NCBI RefSeq assembly: GCF_038397755.1
Contig: NZ_CP151637.1
Span: 1,488,001 to 1,552,000 of the forward strand
DNA: 64,000 nt
Reading direction: 5' to 3'
Source: Microbacterium sp. LWH7-1.2
GTDB taxonomy: Bacteria; Actinomycetota; Actinomycetes; Actinomycetales; Microbacteriaceae
A model generated the notes under the pieces. The model saw nothing but the letters and a program-made list of their open reading frames with translations, was not told the origin of the DNA and made no database searches. Numbering within the stretch: the stretch's first letter is position 1; every line of letters starts with the position of its first letter. This document shows positions 33,072 to 38,873 of this stretch, one piece after another. Both the position numbers and the translations under genes were made by a program.

Positions 33072-34967
33072 TCAGCCGGTCGACGAGGACGTCGCCTCGG
33101 CACCGTCAGCCTCCGAGCCCGTGAGCGCGCGGACGAGCGTGCGCGCGTCGTACGGCCCGACGTGGCGCACGCCGTTGATGAAGAACGTCGGCACCGACGT
33201 GATGTCCATCGCCTCGGCATCCAGCATGTCGTCGCGCACCCGCTGGGTGACCTTCGGCGAGCTGAGGTCCTCCTCGAAGCGCTCGACGTCGAGGCCGAGC
33301 TCCCGCGCGCGACGGATGATGTCGGACGGCAGCTGGTGGTCCTGGTCGGCGAAGAGGCTGCGAGAGAACTCCGGCAGCTTGCCCTGCAGGTTCGCCGCCT
33401 CGGCCGCCTCGGCCGCGGCGAGCGCGTTGGGATGCTGCCTCTCGAGCGGGGCGTGGCGCCACACGTACCGCAGCCGATCGCCGAGTTCCCGCCGCACCTC
33501 CTCGATGGAGCCCGATGCCTTGAGGCAGAACGGGCACTGGAAGTCGCCGTATTCGACGATCGTGAGGGGTGCGTTCACGTCGCCGTAGATGTGGTCCCGC
33601 TTCGGGTCCACGGGACGCACCAGGGTGCGCCCGCCGTCGTCGTCGGGTCGCCGCGCGTCGGAGATGCGGAACATGATCGCGGCGAGGACGAAGGCGAGGA
33701 CGGATGCCGCCAGCACGCCGACGCGCGCCTCGTTCTGCACGTCGGGGTCATCGATGGCGAGATCGATGATGAAGAGCGAGATCGTGAACCCGATGCCGCA
33801 GAGCATCGCGCCGCCGGCGATGCGGTCGAGGGTGAGGCCGAGGCCGAACTCGCCGAGCTTGAAGACCTTCATGATCGCGGACGCGCCGAAGACGCCGACG
33901 AACTTGCCGACGACGAGACCCACGATGATGGCCCACGTCACCGGCGACTGGGCTGCGGCCGCGAGGATCGGTCCCGAGATCTCGACACCCGCATTGGCGA
34001 GCGCGAACAGCGGCAGGATGACGTAGGCGACGTATGGGGAGTACGCCGACTGCAGCCTCTCGTTGATCGAGATCGATTCGCGCAGGCTGTTCGCCGCCTG
34101 ACGCGCGTACTCGGTGTTCGGCGACTGGCGGAACACGCGGGCGAGCTCGAGCGCCTGCTCGACGTCACGGCGGTTGGGCCGGTAGACCGGGATCAGCAGG
34201 GCGATGGCGACGCCGGCGAGCGTCGGGTGGACGCCGGACGCCAGGAACGCGAGCCACACGATGATCGACAGGGTGGCGTAGATCGGGCCGCGGCCGCGGC
34301 GCACGTAGCGGGTGAAGTAGATGCCCGCGAGCCCGACCGCTGCGATCAGGAGCGGCGCGGGCGTGAAGTTCTCGGTGTAGAAGAGGGCGATGATGCTCAG
34401 CGCGCCGATGTCGTCCACCACGGCGAGGGCGAGAAGGAACACCCGCAGCCTTCCCGAGGCGCGTGGCCCGATGAGCGCGAGCGCGCCGACGAGGAACGCG
34501 GTGTCGGTCGAGATCACGACGCCCCACGCATGCTCATAGCCGGACCCCGCTGCGATCGCGAGGAAGAGCGCGGCCGGCACGAGCAGGCCCGCGACGGCGG
34601 CCATCACGGGGATCATCGCGCGCGACCAGCTCGTGAGCTCGCCGATCGCGAACTCGCGGCGCACCTCGAGGCCGACGGTGAAGAAGAAGATCGCCATGAG
34701 CGCGTCGTTTACCAGCGCGTGCAGCGTGAACTCGAGGTGGATGTCGCCGAAGCCGATGGTCAGCTCGGTCTCCCAGAAGTCGTGGTACGACGTCGCGGAG
34801 ATGTTCGCCCACACGATCGCGACGAGCGTCGCGAGCACCAGCAGCAGCGCTCCGGTGCGCTGCTCCCCCATGCTGCGGATGCGGTCGGCGATGGAGGGGC
34901 CGCGTCGCCGCGGGCGCGGCGACCGTTCGGGCTCGGGCGAGCGATCGGTCATGGTCAACTGGGTCAT
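33072..34967 (-). CDS. nhaA: Na+/H+ antiporter NhaA fused to a DsbA-like thioredoxin domain
   Basis: 631 residues. Residues about 30-440 are NhaA: MAIFFFTVGLEVRREFA, the ion-binding Asp pair in LAVVDDIGALSI (about 165-175), and a helix-rich C-half. Residues about 460-620 are a DsbA/thioredoxin-like domain with YGDFQCPFC (redox Cys478 and Cys481) and the cis-Pro loop TSVPTFFING. Sodium/proton exchange with a redox domain on the same chain is a known actinobacterial arrangement; which side the thioredoxin part faces is not obvious. The ATG at 34967 has GGAGG 7 bases upstream. Upstream in-frame extension is unlikely. Confidence 0.93.
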   Translation of the reverse strand: MTQLTMTDRSPEPERSPRPRRRGPSIADRIRSMGEQRTGALLLVLATLVAIVWANISATSYHDFWETELTIGFGDIHLEFTLHALVNDALMAIFFFTVGLEVRREFAIGELTSWSRAMIPVMAAVAGLLVPAALFLAIAAGSGYEHAWGVVISTDTAFLVGALALIGPRASGRLRVFLLALAVVDDIGALSIIALFYTENFTPAPLLIAAVGLAGIYFTRYVRRGRGPIYATLSIIVWLAFLASGVHPTLAGVAIALLIPVYRPNRRDVEQALELARVFRQSPNTEYARQAANSLRESISINERLQSAYSPYVAYVILPLFALANAGVEISGPILAAAAQSPVTWAIIVGLVVGKFVGVFGASAIMKVFKLGEFGLGLTLDRIAGGAMLCGIGFTISLFIIDLAIDDPDVQNEARVGVLAASVLAFVLAAIMFRISDARRPDDDGGRTLVRPVDPKRDHIYGDVNAPLTIVEYGDFQCPFCLKASGSIEEVRRELGDRLRYVWRHAPLERQHPNALAAAEAAEAANLQGKLPEFSRSLFADQDHQLPSDIIRRARELGLDVERFEEDLSSPKVTQRVRDDMLDAEAMDITSVPTFFINGVRHVGPYDARTLVRALTGSEADGAEATSSSTG

Positions 34968-35064
34968 GGCGAACCTCCGCGGCCGGGGATGGGAGGAGAC
35001 GGGCTCGCCCCAGTATGGTGCGTAACCCAAGGCGCCGGGGCCGACCGCCCGATCGGGCGTGTGG

Positions 35065-35070
35065 TAGGTT
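35065..35070 (+). promoter_or_regulatory. −10 box of the trp leader transcript
   Basis: TAGGTT lies 6 bases before the ATG of the 11-residue leader peptide, so the mRNA should start at or next to that ATG. A convincing −35 hexamer was not found. Confidence 0.6.
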
Positions 35071-35076
35071 CGGCGC

Positions 35077-35112
35077 ATGTCCGCGCACCTCTCCTGGTGG
35101 CTCACCGCATAG
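35077..35112 (+). CDS. trpL: tryptophan leader peptide
   Basis: An 11-codon reading frame, MSAHLSWWLTA and then TAG, with two consecutive Trp codons at 35095-35100. Tandem Trp codons are otherwise very rare here, and this frame sits directly before a set of competing RNA stems and a fused anthranilate synthase gene. It is the ribosome-stalling sensor of a classical attenuator: low charged tRNA-Trp stalls the ribosome on the Trp codons and frees stem 2:3. It has no ribosome site and is probably leaderless. Confidence 0.85.
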   Translation: MSAHLSWWLTA

Positions 35113-35161
35113 GCGGTGGGTTCGCGCGACCACAGACCGCCCACGGGGCGGTCTTCTTTTT
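35103..35161 (+). promoter_or_regulatory. tryptophan attenuator with competing stems and terminator
   Basis: Segment 1 is CACCGC (35103-35108). Segment 2 is GGCGGTG (35112-35118). Segment 3 is AGACCGCC (35134-35141). Segment 4 is GGCGGTCT (35147-35154), followed by TCTTTTT (35155-35161). Segments 1:2 and 2:3 are alternatives, and 3:4 is an 8-bp terminator stem with a T-run. Stalling on the Trp codons at 35095-35100 would cover segment 1, let 2:3 form and prevent termination. These features together are the textbook trp attenuation layout. Confidence 0.85.
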
Positions 35162-35200
35162 CGTACGGGACTCCGCCCCCACGACGAAAGACGACGCACC

Positions 35201-37132
35201 ATGACCGGGCCCGCATCCCCGTCCCTTCCCGACCTCGCCGCGAGCGGTCTCCCGTTCGCGCTCATCGCGCGCGACGATCGCACCGTCGAGGTGCTGACCG
35301 GTGACGTCGTCGACGTCGACCTGCTCGCCGACATCCCGCTGATGGATGCCTCGGGCGCGCCGCACGAGGTGCTCGCCCTGGTGCCGTTCCGTCAGGTGCG
35401 CGAGCGCGGGTTCGAGTGCCACGACGACGGAGCGCCGCTGCGATGCCTCATCGTGCGGGATCGCGCTTCGCTCCCCCGCCACGAAGCCCTCGCCCAGCTC
35501 CCGACCGACGCGGTCGCGCTCGAGAACCCCGGCTTCGACATCGCCGACGAGGAGTACGCCGAGATCGTGCGGCGCGTGATCGCCGACGAGATCGGCCGCG
35601 GCGAGGGGGCGAACTTCGTCATCCGACGCGACTTCACGGCGGGAGTGACGACGGATGCCGCCACCGCCGCCCTGACGTGGTTCCGGGCTCTCCTCGAGCA
35701 CGAGCGGGGCGCGTACTGGACGTTCGCCGTCGTCACGCCCGGGCACGTCGCCGTGGGCGCCAGCCCGGAGGCGCATGTGAGCGCGCGCGACGGCGTCGTC
35801 ACGATGAACCCGATCTCGGGGACGTTCCGCCACCCGGCGGGGGGCGCGACTCCCGAGACGCTCACCGAGTTCCTCCGCTCGACGAAGGAGACCGAGGAGC
35901 TGTTCATGGTCGTCGACGAGGAGCTCAAGATGATGAGCGCCGTCTGCTCCGACGGCGGCCGCATCACCGGCCCCCACCTCAAGGAGATGTCGCGGCTCAC
36001 GCATACCGAGTACGTGCTGCGGGGCCTCAGCAAGCTCGACCCGCGCGAAATCCTGCGCGAGACGATGTTCGCCCCCACCGTGACCGGCTCGCCCATGCAG
36101 AACGCGTGCACCGTCATCACGCGCCACGAGACGACGCCGCGCGGCTACTACTCGGGTGTCGCCGCGCTCTTCACCCCCCGCAGCACGCTCGCGGGGGGCG
36201 AGGCGACCCACGACCTCGACGCACCCATCCTCATCCGCACCGCCTACCTGCAGGATGGCCGGTTGCGTGTTCCCGTCGGGGCCACGCTCGTGCGGCACTC
36301 CGATCCCTACGGCGAGGTCGGCGAGACCCACGGAAAGGCTGCCGGCGTGCTCGGCGCGATCGGCGCCGTCCCCCGTGATGCGGCGGCCGAGTCCGCGGCC
36401 GGCGCCGACGTCATCGACGAAGACGCACCTGCCCCGGCCCCTCGCCGTCTCGCCGACGACCCGGCGATCGCCGAGCTGCTGGCGTCGCGCAACGGTCGCC
36501 TCGCCGAATTCTGGCTCAACCCGCAGGGCTCGGGCGAGCCCGGCCCCTTCGACGGACGATCCGCGCTCGTCGTCGACGCCGAGGATCGCTTCACGACGAT
36601 GCTCGCCCACCAGCTGCGCCACCTCGGGCTGGACGTCGAGATCTCACCTTGGAGCGAGGTCACCGACGCGCAGGTCGATCAGGCGGAGCTCCTCGTGACC
36701 GGGCCCGGCCCGGGCGACCCGCGGGACTCCTCGAGCCCCCGCATCCGTCGCATGCGCGATGTCGTCGCGCGCCGTCGCGCCGCCGGCCGGCCGCTCCTCG
36801 CGGTGTGCCTCAGTCACCAGATCCTCGCCGACACGTTCGGCATCGACCTCGCGCCGCTCGGCGCGCCGCACCAGGGCCTGCAGAAGTCGGTCGACGTTTT
36901 CGGCATCCCGGCGTCGATCGGCTTCTACAACACCTTCACCGCGCGCGTTCCGGCCGGCACGACGCACGTGGGCGAGGCCGAGATCGCGGCCGACGCATCC
37001 GGTGACGTGTACGCGCTGCGCGGCCCCGGCTTCGCGTCGGTGCAGGGCCACCTCGAGTCGATCCTCTCGCGCGACGGCATGACGACGCTGCAGCGCCTCG
37101 TCGAGCAGGCTCTGGCGCCCGTCCCCGCCTGA
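35201..37132 (+). CDS. fused anthranilate synthase (component I + glutamine amidotransferase), PhzE-like
   Basis: 643 residues. The first ~440 form the chorismate-binding domain with MNPISGTFRHPAGG, STKETEELFMVVDEELKMM, HTEYVLRGLSK and GSPMQNACTVI; the last ~200 are a class I glutamine amidotransferase with nucleophile Cys536 in LAVCLSHQIL, and QGHLES carrying the His/Glu pair. The chain resembles PhzE of phenazine pathways and fused TrpEG proteins. No phenazine genes are near, and a trp attenuator precedes it, so it probably makes anthranilate for tryptophan; whether it makes anthranilate or aminodeoxyisochorismate cannot be told from sequence. ATG at 35201, weak ribosome site. Confidence 0.9.
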   Translation: MTGPASPSLPDLAASGLPFALIARDDRTVEVLTGDVVDVDLLADIPLMDASGAPHEVLALVPFRQVRERGFECHDDGAPLRCLIVRDRASLPRHEALAQLPTDAVALENPGFDIADEEYAEIVRRVIADEIGRGEGANFVIRRDFTAGVTTDAATAALTWFRALLEHERGAYWTFAVVTPGHVAVGASPEAHVSARDGVVTMNPISGTFRHPAGGATPETLTEFLRSTKETEELFMVVDEELKMMSAVCSDGGRITGPHLKEMSRLTHTEYVLRGLSKLDPREILRETMFAPTVTGSPMQNACTVITRHETTPRGYYSGVAALFTPRSTLAGGEATHDLDAPILIRTAYLQDGRLRVPVGATLVRHSDPYGEVGETHGKAAGVLGAIGAVPRDAAAESAAGADVIDEDAPAPAPRRLADDPAIAELLASRNGRLAEFWLNPQGSGEPGPFDGRSALVVDAEDRFTTMLAHQLRHLGLDVEISPWSEVTDAQVDQAELLVTGPGPGDPRDSSSPRIRRMRDVVARRRAAGRPLLAVCLSHQILADTFGIDLAPLGAPHQGLQKSVDVFGIPASIGFYNTFTARVPAGTTHVGEAEIAADASGDVYALRGPGFASVQGHLESILSRDGMTTLQRLVEQALAPVPA

Positions 37133-37156
37133 CCGCCCGCATCCCATCACTCCTTC

Positions 37157-37229
37157 GGGTTTGGGGCGCAGCGCATACGTTCGGGGCGCACGTCGCGCGC
37201 CCCGAACGTATGCCGCGCGCCCCAAACCC
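37157..37229. repeat. large two-part inverted repeat after the anthranilate synthase gene
   Basis: GGGTTTGGGGCGC (37157-37169) pairs with 37217-37229, and 37173-37189 pairs perfectly over 17 bp with 37197-37213; a 3x3 internal loop separates them and the apical loop is 37190-37196. It lies between convergent genes and can end both, but its size and internal symmetry also fit a dispersed intergenic repeat. Confidence 0.7.
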
Positions 37230-37254
37230 AGAGCAGACGACGGATGCCGCGGGC

Positions 37255-38508
37255 TCAGCGCGCCGCGCGGGCGGCGAGGAGGCGGCGCTCGGCCTCGTTC
37301 GCCGTGAGTTCGAGGGCGCGCAGGTCCGCGGCGAGCGCCTCGTCGTCGCGGCCGAGGTCGCGCAGCAGCGACGCCCGCACCGCGTGCCACAGGTGCGAGC
37401 GCGCAAGGGGACCCTCGAGCGCGTCGACCTCGGCGAGAGCGACCGCCGCGCCCTCGACGCGCGCGAGCGCGACTGCGCGGTTGAGCCGCACCACCGGCGA
37501 CCGGTCGTACGCCAGGAGCATGTCGTAGAGCGTCAGCACCTGGAGCCAGTCGGTGGACGCCGCGTCGGCGGCATCCGCGTGGCACGCCGCGATCGCCGCG
37601 TGAAGCTGCCAGCGTCCCGGCCGTCGCAGGCGCGCCGCCCGCCCGAGCGCCTGCCGCGCGCCGGCGAGCAGCGTCGCGTCCCACTGCGTGCGGTCCTGTC
37701 GGGCGAGCAGCACGAGCTCCCCGTCGACGGATCTCGCCGACTCACGGGCGCGATGGAAGCGCAGCAGCGACAGCAGCCCCCATGCCTCCGCGGCACGCGG
37801 CAGCGCCTCGGCGACCACCTGGGCCAGCCACAGCGCGTCGTCGGCGAGATCGCGGTCGGCCGCGGCATCCGCCCCCGCCACGAAGTGCGCCTCGCTGTAC
37901 ATCACCGACACGGTCGTGAGCACGAGGTCGAGCCGACCCGCCGCGTCCGCGCCCTGGGGCACGCGCAGCGGGATGCCGCTGTCGGCGATCTTGCGCTTCG
38001 CCCGCGAGATCCGCTGTCCCGTCGTCGGCTCGGTCGAGAACGTCGCCCGAGCGATCTGCGCGGTCGTGAGGCCGCACACGGCGCGCAGGGTCAGCGCGAG
38101 CTGGGCATCGGGCGCGAGGGCCGGGTGGCAGCATCCGAAGAGAAGGAGAAGCCGCTCGTCCGCAGGCCGGCCGTCGACGCTCGGCTCCGGCTCGAGCAGC
38201 GCCACCTTGTCGCGGAGCACGCGCTCGCGGCGCACCCGGTCGAGCGCGTTGTGCCGCGCCGCCTGCATGAGCCAGGCGCCCGGGTTCGGCGGGATCCCGC
38301 GGCTGCGCCACTCTCGCAGCGCCTCCTCGACGGCCGCAGCGACCGCCTCCTCCGCGACATCGAAACTGCCGAACGAGACGGTCAGCGTCGCCGTGATGCG
38401 CGCGGACTCCTCGCGCACCACGCTCACGAGCAGGCGATCGGATGCCGCGGCCCCGCCTGAGCCCGGATGTCCCGGGTCACGCGGGGCCGCAGCATCCGTT
38501 CCGGACAT
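37255..38508 (-). CDS. ECF42-type sigma factor with C-terminal TPR-like extension
   Basis: 417 residues. N-terminal sigma regions 2 and 4 (SFDVAEEAVAAAVEEALREW; GAWLMQAARHNALDRVRRE; FGCCHPALAPDAQLALTLRAVCGLTTAQIARA in part), then a ~200-residue helical extension typical of ECF42 (WQLHAAIAACHADA, YDRSPVVRLNRAVAL). In this group the sigma gene is paired with a small DGPF/YCII protein, as here. Either ATG 38508 or GTG 38511 can start it; the ATG overlaps the partner's stop (TGATG). Target genes unknown. Confidence 0.92.
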   Translation of the reverse strand: MSGTDAAAPRDPGHPGSGGAAASDRLLVSVVREESARITATLTVSFGSFDVAEEAVAAAVEEALREWRSRGIPPNPGAWLMQAARHNALDRVRRERVLRDKVALLEPEPSVDGRPADERLLLLFGCCHPALAPDAQLALTLRAVCGLTTAQIARATFSTEPTTGQRISRAKRKIADSGIPLRVPQGADAAGRLDLVLTTVSVMYSEAHFVAGADAAADRDLADDALWLAQVVAEALPRAAEAWGLLSLLRFHRARESARSVDGELVLLARQDRTQWDATLLAGARQALGRAARLRRPGRWQLHAAIAACHADAADAASTDWLQVLTLYDMLLAYDRSPVVRLNRAVALARVEGAAVALAEVDALEGPLARSHLWHAVRASLLRDLGRDDEALAADLRALELTANEAERRLLAARAAR

Positions 38509-38873
38509 CACTCGAATTGGCTGTAGTCGACGACCATGGGCCGGATCTCGACGGCCACGCCCGGGAATTCCAAGGACGGCCAGGTCTTGACGAGATCGAT
38601 CGCCGCATCGAGGTCGGGAACGTCGATGACGCTGAACCCGCCGATGACCTCCTTGGCCTCCGAGAATGGCCCGTCTGCGACGACCGGACCGTCGTCACCC
38701 GCGCGCACCGTCGTCGCGGTGCTGACGGGGTGCAGCTCCGCACCCGAGTCGTCGATCTTGTCGGCGTTCCTGCCGAACCACTCGTAGATGCGTCCGTAGA
38801 CCTCCTGCCGGCGCTCTTCGGGCACCGCGGCGTCGAGCTCGGGGGTCGAGGTGAACATGATGACGTACTTCAC
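38508..38873 (-). CDS. YCII/DGPF family protein, partner of the ECF42 sigma factor
   Basis: 121 residues starting KYVIMFTSTPELDAA, with the signature DGPFSEAKEVIGGF (about 80-93). Family members are small dimeric alpha/beta proteins of unknown chemistry that are regularly encoded with, and controlled by, ECF42 sigma factors. The GTG at 38873 has AAAGGA 8 bases upstream. A TGTCGA element at 38933-38938 lies 60 bp upstream and could be the −35 of an ECF42 promoter, giving autoregulation. Confidence 0.9.
   Translation of the reverse strand: MKYVIMFTSTPELDAAVPEERRQEVYGRIYEWFGRNADKIDDSGAELHPVSTATTVRAGDDGPVVADGPFSEAKEVIGGFSVIDVPDLDAAIDLVKTWPSLEFPGVAVEIRPMVVDYSQFE

Follow-up and report, generated by a model that had tools for sequence, protein, structure and literature searches.

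How is the fused TrpE-TrpG enzyme encoded at this locus controlled, and what does the cell use it for? The enzyme (643 aa; 35201-37132, plus strand) contains a chorismate-binding and a GATase domain and is PhzE-like in sequence, and a preliminary description had placed a complete tryptophan attenuator directly before it. We analysed the locus within the window (the whole 64-kb stretch of DNA), and compared it with related genomes and with known systems. Judging from sequence, we think it very likely that a ribosome-mediated Trp transcription attenuator governs the fused gene, whose product is probably the one anthranilate synthase that this Microbacterium possesses.

A tryptophan leader and its alternative stems

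The leader ORF, as read from the sequence (35077-35112, plus strand), consists of the codons ATG TCC GCG CAC CTC TCC TGG TGG CTC ACC GCA TAG and encodes MSAHLSWWLTA; the letters and coordinates given earlier for it, tandem Trp codons included, were correct. These two codons (TGG TGG, 35095-35100, plus strand), which are conserved among leaders, are the proposed sensing step. The element TAGGTT (35065-35070) lies 6 nt upstream of the leader ATG and forms part of a predicted extended -10 promoter, TGTGGTAGGTT (35060-35070, plus strand). In form, the pattern resembles an extended -10 promoter that would feed a leaderless message, with transcription probably starting at the leader ATG itself (35077). 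A promoter of the -10/-35 consensus type was also considered and rejected, as none was found at the locus and no -35 element was conserved among 58 non-redundant leaders from relatives. The window holds three short ORFs (6-30 codons, both strands) with adjacent Trp codons, and the MSAHLSWWLTA leader is the only one of them with TAnnnT 5-8 nt 5' of its start. Positions 33072-34973, divergent from the attenuator, encode an NhaA-type Na+/H+ antiporter that carries a DsbA-like thioredoxin domain as a fusion.

Four pairing regions follow on the plus strand. Region 1 (CTCACCGC, 35101-35108) can pair with region 2 (GGCGGTGGG, 35112-35120), which overlaps the leader stop and has either region 1 or region 3 as its partner. 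Region 3 (AGACCGCCC, 35134-35142) can in turn pair with region 2, as the antiterminator, or with region 4 (GGGCGGTCT, 35146-35154), the 3' arm of the terminator, which runs into the T-run TCTTTTT (35155-35161, plus strand). Stem 1:2 (35101-35108 with 35113-35120) has 8 bp and -12.8 kcal/mol when folded alone, the antiterminator 2:3 joins 35112-35117 to 35136-35141, and the intrinsic terminator 3:4 has 9 bp (35134-35142 with 35146-35154) and the tail TCTTTTTCGT. The three mutually exclusive stems and the T-run thus lie where they had been described, except that stem 1:2 is two pairs longer. The 3:4 hairpin was the sole terminator-like site on either strand of 34960-35260 (mean for shuffled sequence 0.1). 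Structure prediction for 35065-35200 (136 nt), which had been suggested as a check, gave a fold better than that of 199 of 200 shuffles (z = -2.80), one shuffle being as good.

We judge the attenuator to be genuine, strongly conserved and of a known kind, and the predicted switch is the textbook one. Driven by the extended -10 promoter, transcription would begin on or beside the leader ATG, and the ribosome would load on the 5' AUG. With Trp-tRNA in short supply, the ribosome would stall on UGG UGG (35095-35100), where the usual footprint of a stalled ribosome covers region 1 and leaves region 2 free; regions 2 and 3 would then pair before the terminator could form, and RNA polymerase would continue into the gene. 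With ample Trp-tRNA, the ribosome would run on to the stop codon, whose position overlaps the beginning of region 2, and would cover that region, so that stem 3:4 would end transcription near 35160. In the case of no translation, stems 1:2 and 3:4 could both form and transcription would stop too. The start site, the stalling and the response of termination to Trp are what we infer from this arrangement.

If region 1 is blocked and region 4 is available, folding to minimum energy gives the terminator (-23.2 kcal/mol, against -12.2 kcal/mol for the antiterminator, 35111-35141). As the terminator is the more stable structure once region 4 is present, antitermination would have to be kinetic. In the minimum-energy fold the terminator U-tract can also pair with ACGACGAAAGA 5' of the gene (35155-35190). 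By eye this pairing is restricted to close relatives, and we did not count it as part of the system. A known RNA family was likewise rejected as the identity of the element, since no Rfam family matched the 64-kb window at gathering scores.

Conservation of the switch among relatives

We examined 133 loci with the fused gene: 24 from the family sample, 29 further loci from the genus and 80 named loci. The named loci were the best 80 of 572 relatives, and 74 of them are titled Microbacterium. The sources overlap and some genomes are counted twice, so that the 130 leaders found correspond to 107 distinct trimmed sequences. In 130 of the 133 loci a tandem-Trp leader stood upstream of the fused gene; the earlier claim of a complete Trp attenuator ahead of a PhzE-like fused enzyme is supported, and the attenuator is conserved in relatives. 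Of the loci without a leader, L104 and L147 are interrupted by a contig end and L033 is a true miss. For the pairing analyses we set aside L030, which has no clean terminator, and L133, for which the wrong hairpin had been chosen, and thinned the remainder at 90% identity to 58 leaders. The preliminary description would have been contradicted by relatives that lacked the Trp codons or the pairing of the stems, and both are kept, in the 130 and in the 58 leaders, respectively.

The leaders are uniform in the parts that matter to the proposed switch. They contain two Trp codons in 127 of the 130 cases and three in the other 3, and the last Trp codon is followed by the stop after 9 nt (123 leaders) or 6 nt (7 leaders), while the residues N-terminal to the Trp pair vary. 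TAnnnT was kept 5' of an in-frame leader start in 130/130, at N6 in 90 and N7 in 40, with ATG as the start codon in 122 and GTG in 8. The same spacing was found for 250 of 16854 ATGs in the same loci (1.5%), a comparison that somewhat favours the leaders because several start codons were permitted for each. The four bases 5' of G/A/C-TAnnnT were mostly T, G, T and G (45, 46, 42 and 48 of 58).

The stems are conserved as pairs. Stem 1:2 folded in 58/58 leaders, with a mean of -9.76 kcal/mol compared to -8.62 kcal/mol when partners were swapped between species (0/300 as low) and -6.14 kcal/mol when region 1 was shuffled (0/200 as low as its own). The terminator showed covariation, with 21 cells changed on both sides (0/500 shuffles as high), and 91.4% of its cells were paired, compared to 28.9-64.6% when the arms were slid. 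For the antiterminator the figures were 93.4% and 26.4-69.6%, and with regions 1 and 4 removed region 2 paired with region 3 in 58/58. The antiterminator showed no covariation among the 58 leaders because its core is invariant; a sequence that serves three helices is expected to freeze.

A covariance model, R1, was built from the 58 leaders, the present site included. With this model the present site scored 68.2 bits, and the runner-up in the 4.4-Mb genome 18.5 bits. Together with the leader in 130 of 133 loci, this specificity places the attenuator beyond chance. In the 199 family genomes, R1 gave at least 46 matches in 40 genomes, and the 23 matches of 39 bits or more all lay before the fused gene. 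We also considered that the attenuator might belong to canonical trpE in relatives, and rejected this: by coordinates, 0 of the 46 listed matches lay directly upstream of a canonical trpE in our catalogue, which leaves out the trpE of G131.

The weaker matches inspected were L204-L210. Three of these, L205, L206 and L207 (genomes G158, G136 and G161), lie near position 1501, score about 36 bits and comprise leaderless-looking leaders with adjacent Trp codons and terminators before a trpB-like gene, which in L205 is trpB by TIGR00263 (573.6 bits). At the thresholds used, canonical TrpE and the fused enzyme were both absent from G136 and G161, which may therefore live on external indole or Trp. 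In a 1.4-Mb genome (G027, loci L033 and L214), the fused enzyme was present and both canonical TrpE and the attenuator were absent; this lineage may have lost the switch during genome reduction.

Identity and distribution of the fused enzyme

Three proteins of this genome match PF00425: a PabB-like protein (TIGR00553, 326.8 bits, cut-off 328.4), an isochorismate synthase (TIGR00543, 233.4 bits, above its cut-off) and the fused enzyme. The last scored 89.5 bits with the canonical TrpE profile NF010086, under the curated 693, and was far below the cut-off of every NCBIfam among the matches listed. None of the three is thus a canonical TrpE. The enzyme had been called an orphan; if that is to mean a spare or a secondary activity, the view is not upheld: as no canonical TrpE was found among the chorismate-binding proteins of the genome, it is probably not a spare. 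The gene is probably the cell's only anthranilate synthase gene, serving the first step of tryptophan synthesis. Among other trp genes of the genome, trpD, trpC and trpB were found, and trpA was recognised by eye.

The nearest solved chain was 3r74 (492.8 bits over residues 26-637, both domains), titled anthranilate/para-aminobenzoate synthases component I. We take 3r74 to be PhzE, an ADIC synthase, and it resembles the present protein in being a fused two-domain enzyme. Names among the best 120 of 7999 homologues include anthranilate synthase family protein and phenazine biosynthesis protein phzE, besides others. The product here would be anthranilate for Trp rather than ADIC. The motif LLES, the Trp site of TrpE, is absent from this protein and present in 2 of the 44 rows of the tree described below, which hints, weakly, that feedback control of the fused enzyme is not of the canonical type. 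A fused anthranilate synthase of S. venezuelae (Ashenafi et al. 2015) is mentioned in PMC5897657. It is like the present enzyme in being fused and in being reported as an anthranilate synthase; the two are likened by description, sequences having been compared for the Streptomyces-like relatives only.

The fused enzyme was present in 98 of 99 genus genomes, the lone absence being from a genome that is 88% complete, and the cut-off for canonical TrpE was passed by 0/99. G286 had a near-full-length TrpE match of 646.9 bits, and the other best matches in the 99 genomes were of 268.6 bits or less. Most simply, the fused enzyme would be the only anthranilate synthase in almost all of the genus. In the family sample, where E < 1e-110 counted as canonical TrpE, the fused enzyme was found in 24/199 genomes (E <= 1e-60). 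Canonical TrpE was missing from 11 of these 24, compared to 12 of the 175 genomes without the fused enzyme (Fisher p = 4e-6, uncorrected for kinship, and with incomplete assemblies among the 12). The other 13 of the 24 carry canonical TrpE too, and thus the attenuator does not depend on the fused enzyme being the sole one.

In genus g49, the fused enzyme occurs alone in G048, and TrpE alone in G118 and G173. The order in locus L037, by motif, is hisI, a membrane-protein-like ORF, an HGxxPAAW protein and trpC, with no trpE; in L042 hisI and the HGxxPAAW gene flank a canonical trpE, and in L039-L041 trpE is followed by the HGxxPAAW gene, hisI not being seen in the short flank. The fused gene lies near ispG in 61 of 69 long named loci (motif test), as it does in the window, and in L214 it lies near ispG and an M50 protease gene. 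What follows for annotation is a correction of labels: the Microbacterium gene to which databases frequently give the name phzE is probably a housekeeping trpE(G), the sole entry into Trp synthesis in the genus.

Known systems, rival readings and the enzyme tree

In the E. coli trp attenuator, a ribosome stalls at tandem Trp codons and thereby decides between alternative stems; the leader has a Shine-Dalgarno sequence and precedes the whole trp operon. The alternative stems and, as predicted, the stalling logic are shared with the present locus. Unlike in E. coli, the leader here is predicted to be leaderless, and a single gene, separate from trpC, trpB and trpD, follows it. A trpL-trpE attenuator of S. 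venezuelae was reportedly described by Lin et al. 1998. In S. lividans, trpL1 (MFAHSTRNWWWTAHPAAH) is reported to be leaderless and to precede a monocistronic trpE (PMC8079986). The Streptomyces trpL-trpE arrangement, as far as these accounts give it, is like the one predicted here: a short leaderless ORF with tandem Trp codons, a terminator and a monocistronic anthranilate synthase gene. It differs in having three Trp codons, compared to usually two in the 11-residue peptide here.

The S. meliloti trpE(G) is likewise a fused gene. Its attenuator RNA is reported to begin at the trpL ATG (PMC7298713), and this leaderless trpL before trpE(G), with attenuation, resembles the layout predicted here. 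S. meliloti belongs to another phylum, and trans-acting roles are reported there (PMC7298713) whereas none is known here. The preliminary description had called leaderlessness unusual for an attenuation sensor, a judgement at odds with the leaderless trpL1 of S. lividans and trpL of S. meliloti, as reported in PMC8079986 and PMC7298713. Among the relatives of the present locus, too, the predicted leaderless layout is the rule, not an oddity.

We take Leifsonia to be a member of this family (Microbacteriaceae). It is among the genomes studied in PMC1262725, and the passages of that account that concern it do not report trp attenuators for it. For Corynebacterium and Streptomyces, the same source describes trp attenuators with a complementary triple, gGCC-rGCy-GGCC, in antiterminator and terminator (PMC1262725), whereas the stem core here is GGCGG-CCGCC. 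By eye, 35101-35160 contains no GGCC, and for lack of this triple we file the element under the wider trp-attenuator kind, not in the sequence group of PMC1262725. The open-licence literature yielded no report on a Microbacterium Trp attenuator or leader peptide, and papers on Microbacterium trpE or anthranilate synthase concern other subjects, going by titles and the starts of abstracts. What is probably new is the control, by an attenuator, of an enzyme that is probably the only anthranilate synthase in Microbacterium; the leaderless layout has already been reported in other bacteria.

Could the same observations be explained otherwise? Short GC-rich stems are easily found, and three short ORFs with adjacent Trp codons in one window might suggest a constitutive terminator next to a chance ORF in GC-rich sequence. 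We give this reading almost no credence, as it is contradicted by the leader in 130/133 loci, and by TAnnnT in 130/130, the swap test of stem 1:2, the terminator covariation and the specificity of R1. A leader whose main product is a peptide or small RNA that acts in trans, like the peTrpL and rnTrpL of S. meliloti, with cis attenuation secondary, would fit the leaderless layout and the short terminated RNA, which match those reported for S. meliloti (PMC7298713). It would place conservation elsewhere than where we find it, on the Trp codons and stems with variable residues before the Trp pair, and we regard it as very improbable.

It is somewhat less improbable, and still unlikely, that the attenuator is real and the enzyme is an ADIC synthase (PhzE) for a secondary product, with anthranilate for Trp coming from elsewhere. 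The full-length similarity to 3r74 (492.8 bits) and the many database names that read phzE would agree with this, and passages of PMC5958127 state that the protein sequence gives no clue why PhzE stops at ADIC and that anthranilate synthase and PhzE are indistinguishable by sequence. The Trp codons in the leader speak against an ADIC synthase, as does the result that canonical TrpE was found neither in this genome nor in 98 of the 99 from the genus. None of the six neighbouring proteins scanned is a phenazine protein by Pfam name, and in the tree the enzyme falls outside the clade of 3r74. We therefore retain attenuation of an anthranilate synthase as the preferred reading.

The tree has 44 rows: 22 family and genus loci, 20 non-family loci, a second copy from G293 and the 3r74 chain. 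It was rooted at its midpoint; several rows are long and three are of odd composition. The non-family loci come from 14 genomes, and the fused enzyme was found in 20/396 genomes of the phylum. A leader with WW or WWW preceded 13 of the 20 non-family loci, each with TAnnnT at N6 or N7; 7 of these 13 leaders start with MFAHS or MFALS and contain WWWTA, and so come near to S. lividans trpL1; the genomes we infer to be Streptomyces. The attenuator label required 3 changes on the tree (0/500 shuffles as low). One clade (98/95) among attenuated rows united the 3r74 chain with seven further rows that lack an attenuator, the remaining attenuator-less rows being L033 and L173. Thus 3r74, unlike the fused enzyme of this genome, sits in a clade without attenuators. 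That presence of the predicted attenuator distinguishes these enzymes, on the tree, from the PhzE clade is a new point, and the attenuator may serve as a genomic marker that separates anthranilate synthases from PhzE-type ADIC synthases.

Residues at positions 273, 342, 357, 383 and 388 differ between the 34 attenuated rows and the 8 rows that make up the PhzE clade; at position 342, for example, P occurs in 34/34 attenuated rows and A, V or S in the clade. As all 8 rows share one branch, these residues may reflect one event, and we conclude nothing from them. More tentatively, and with the balance somewhat against it, the Trp attenuator could be ancestral in actinobacterial fused anthranilate synthases, ADIC synthases (PhzE and its kin) having arisen by loss of the switch and of the last lyase step. 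If this were true, presence of the attenuator would separate the two activities where protein sequence reportedly cannot, and Microbacterium, apparently endowed with this enzyme alone, would provide a large natural set of lyase-competent members.

No leader with adjacent Trp codons was found in the 500 bases 5' of the second fused copy of G293 (L211:7047-9173). That copy lies in a biosynthetic-looking cluster with a class II DAHP synthase, an MFS transporter, an adenylation-carrier-reductase protein and a phosphopantetheinyl transferase. In the window, the fused gene is followed by an inverted repeat (37139-37247) with 54-nt arms that are 78% complementary and 1 nt apart, located between it and a convergent sigma-factor-like gene. 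The latter belongs to a minus-strand pair (37255-38873) that encodes a sigma-70 region 4 / DUF6596 protein and a YCII-domain protein.
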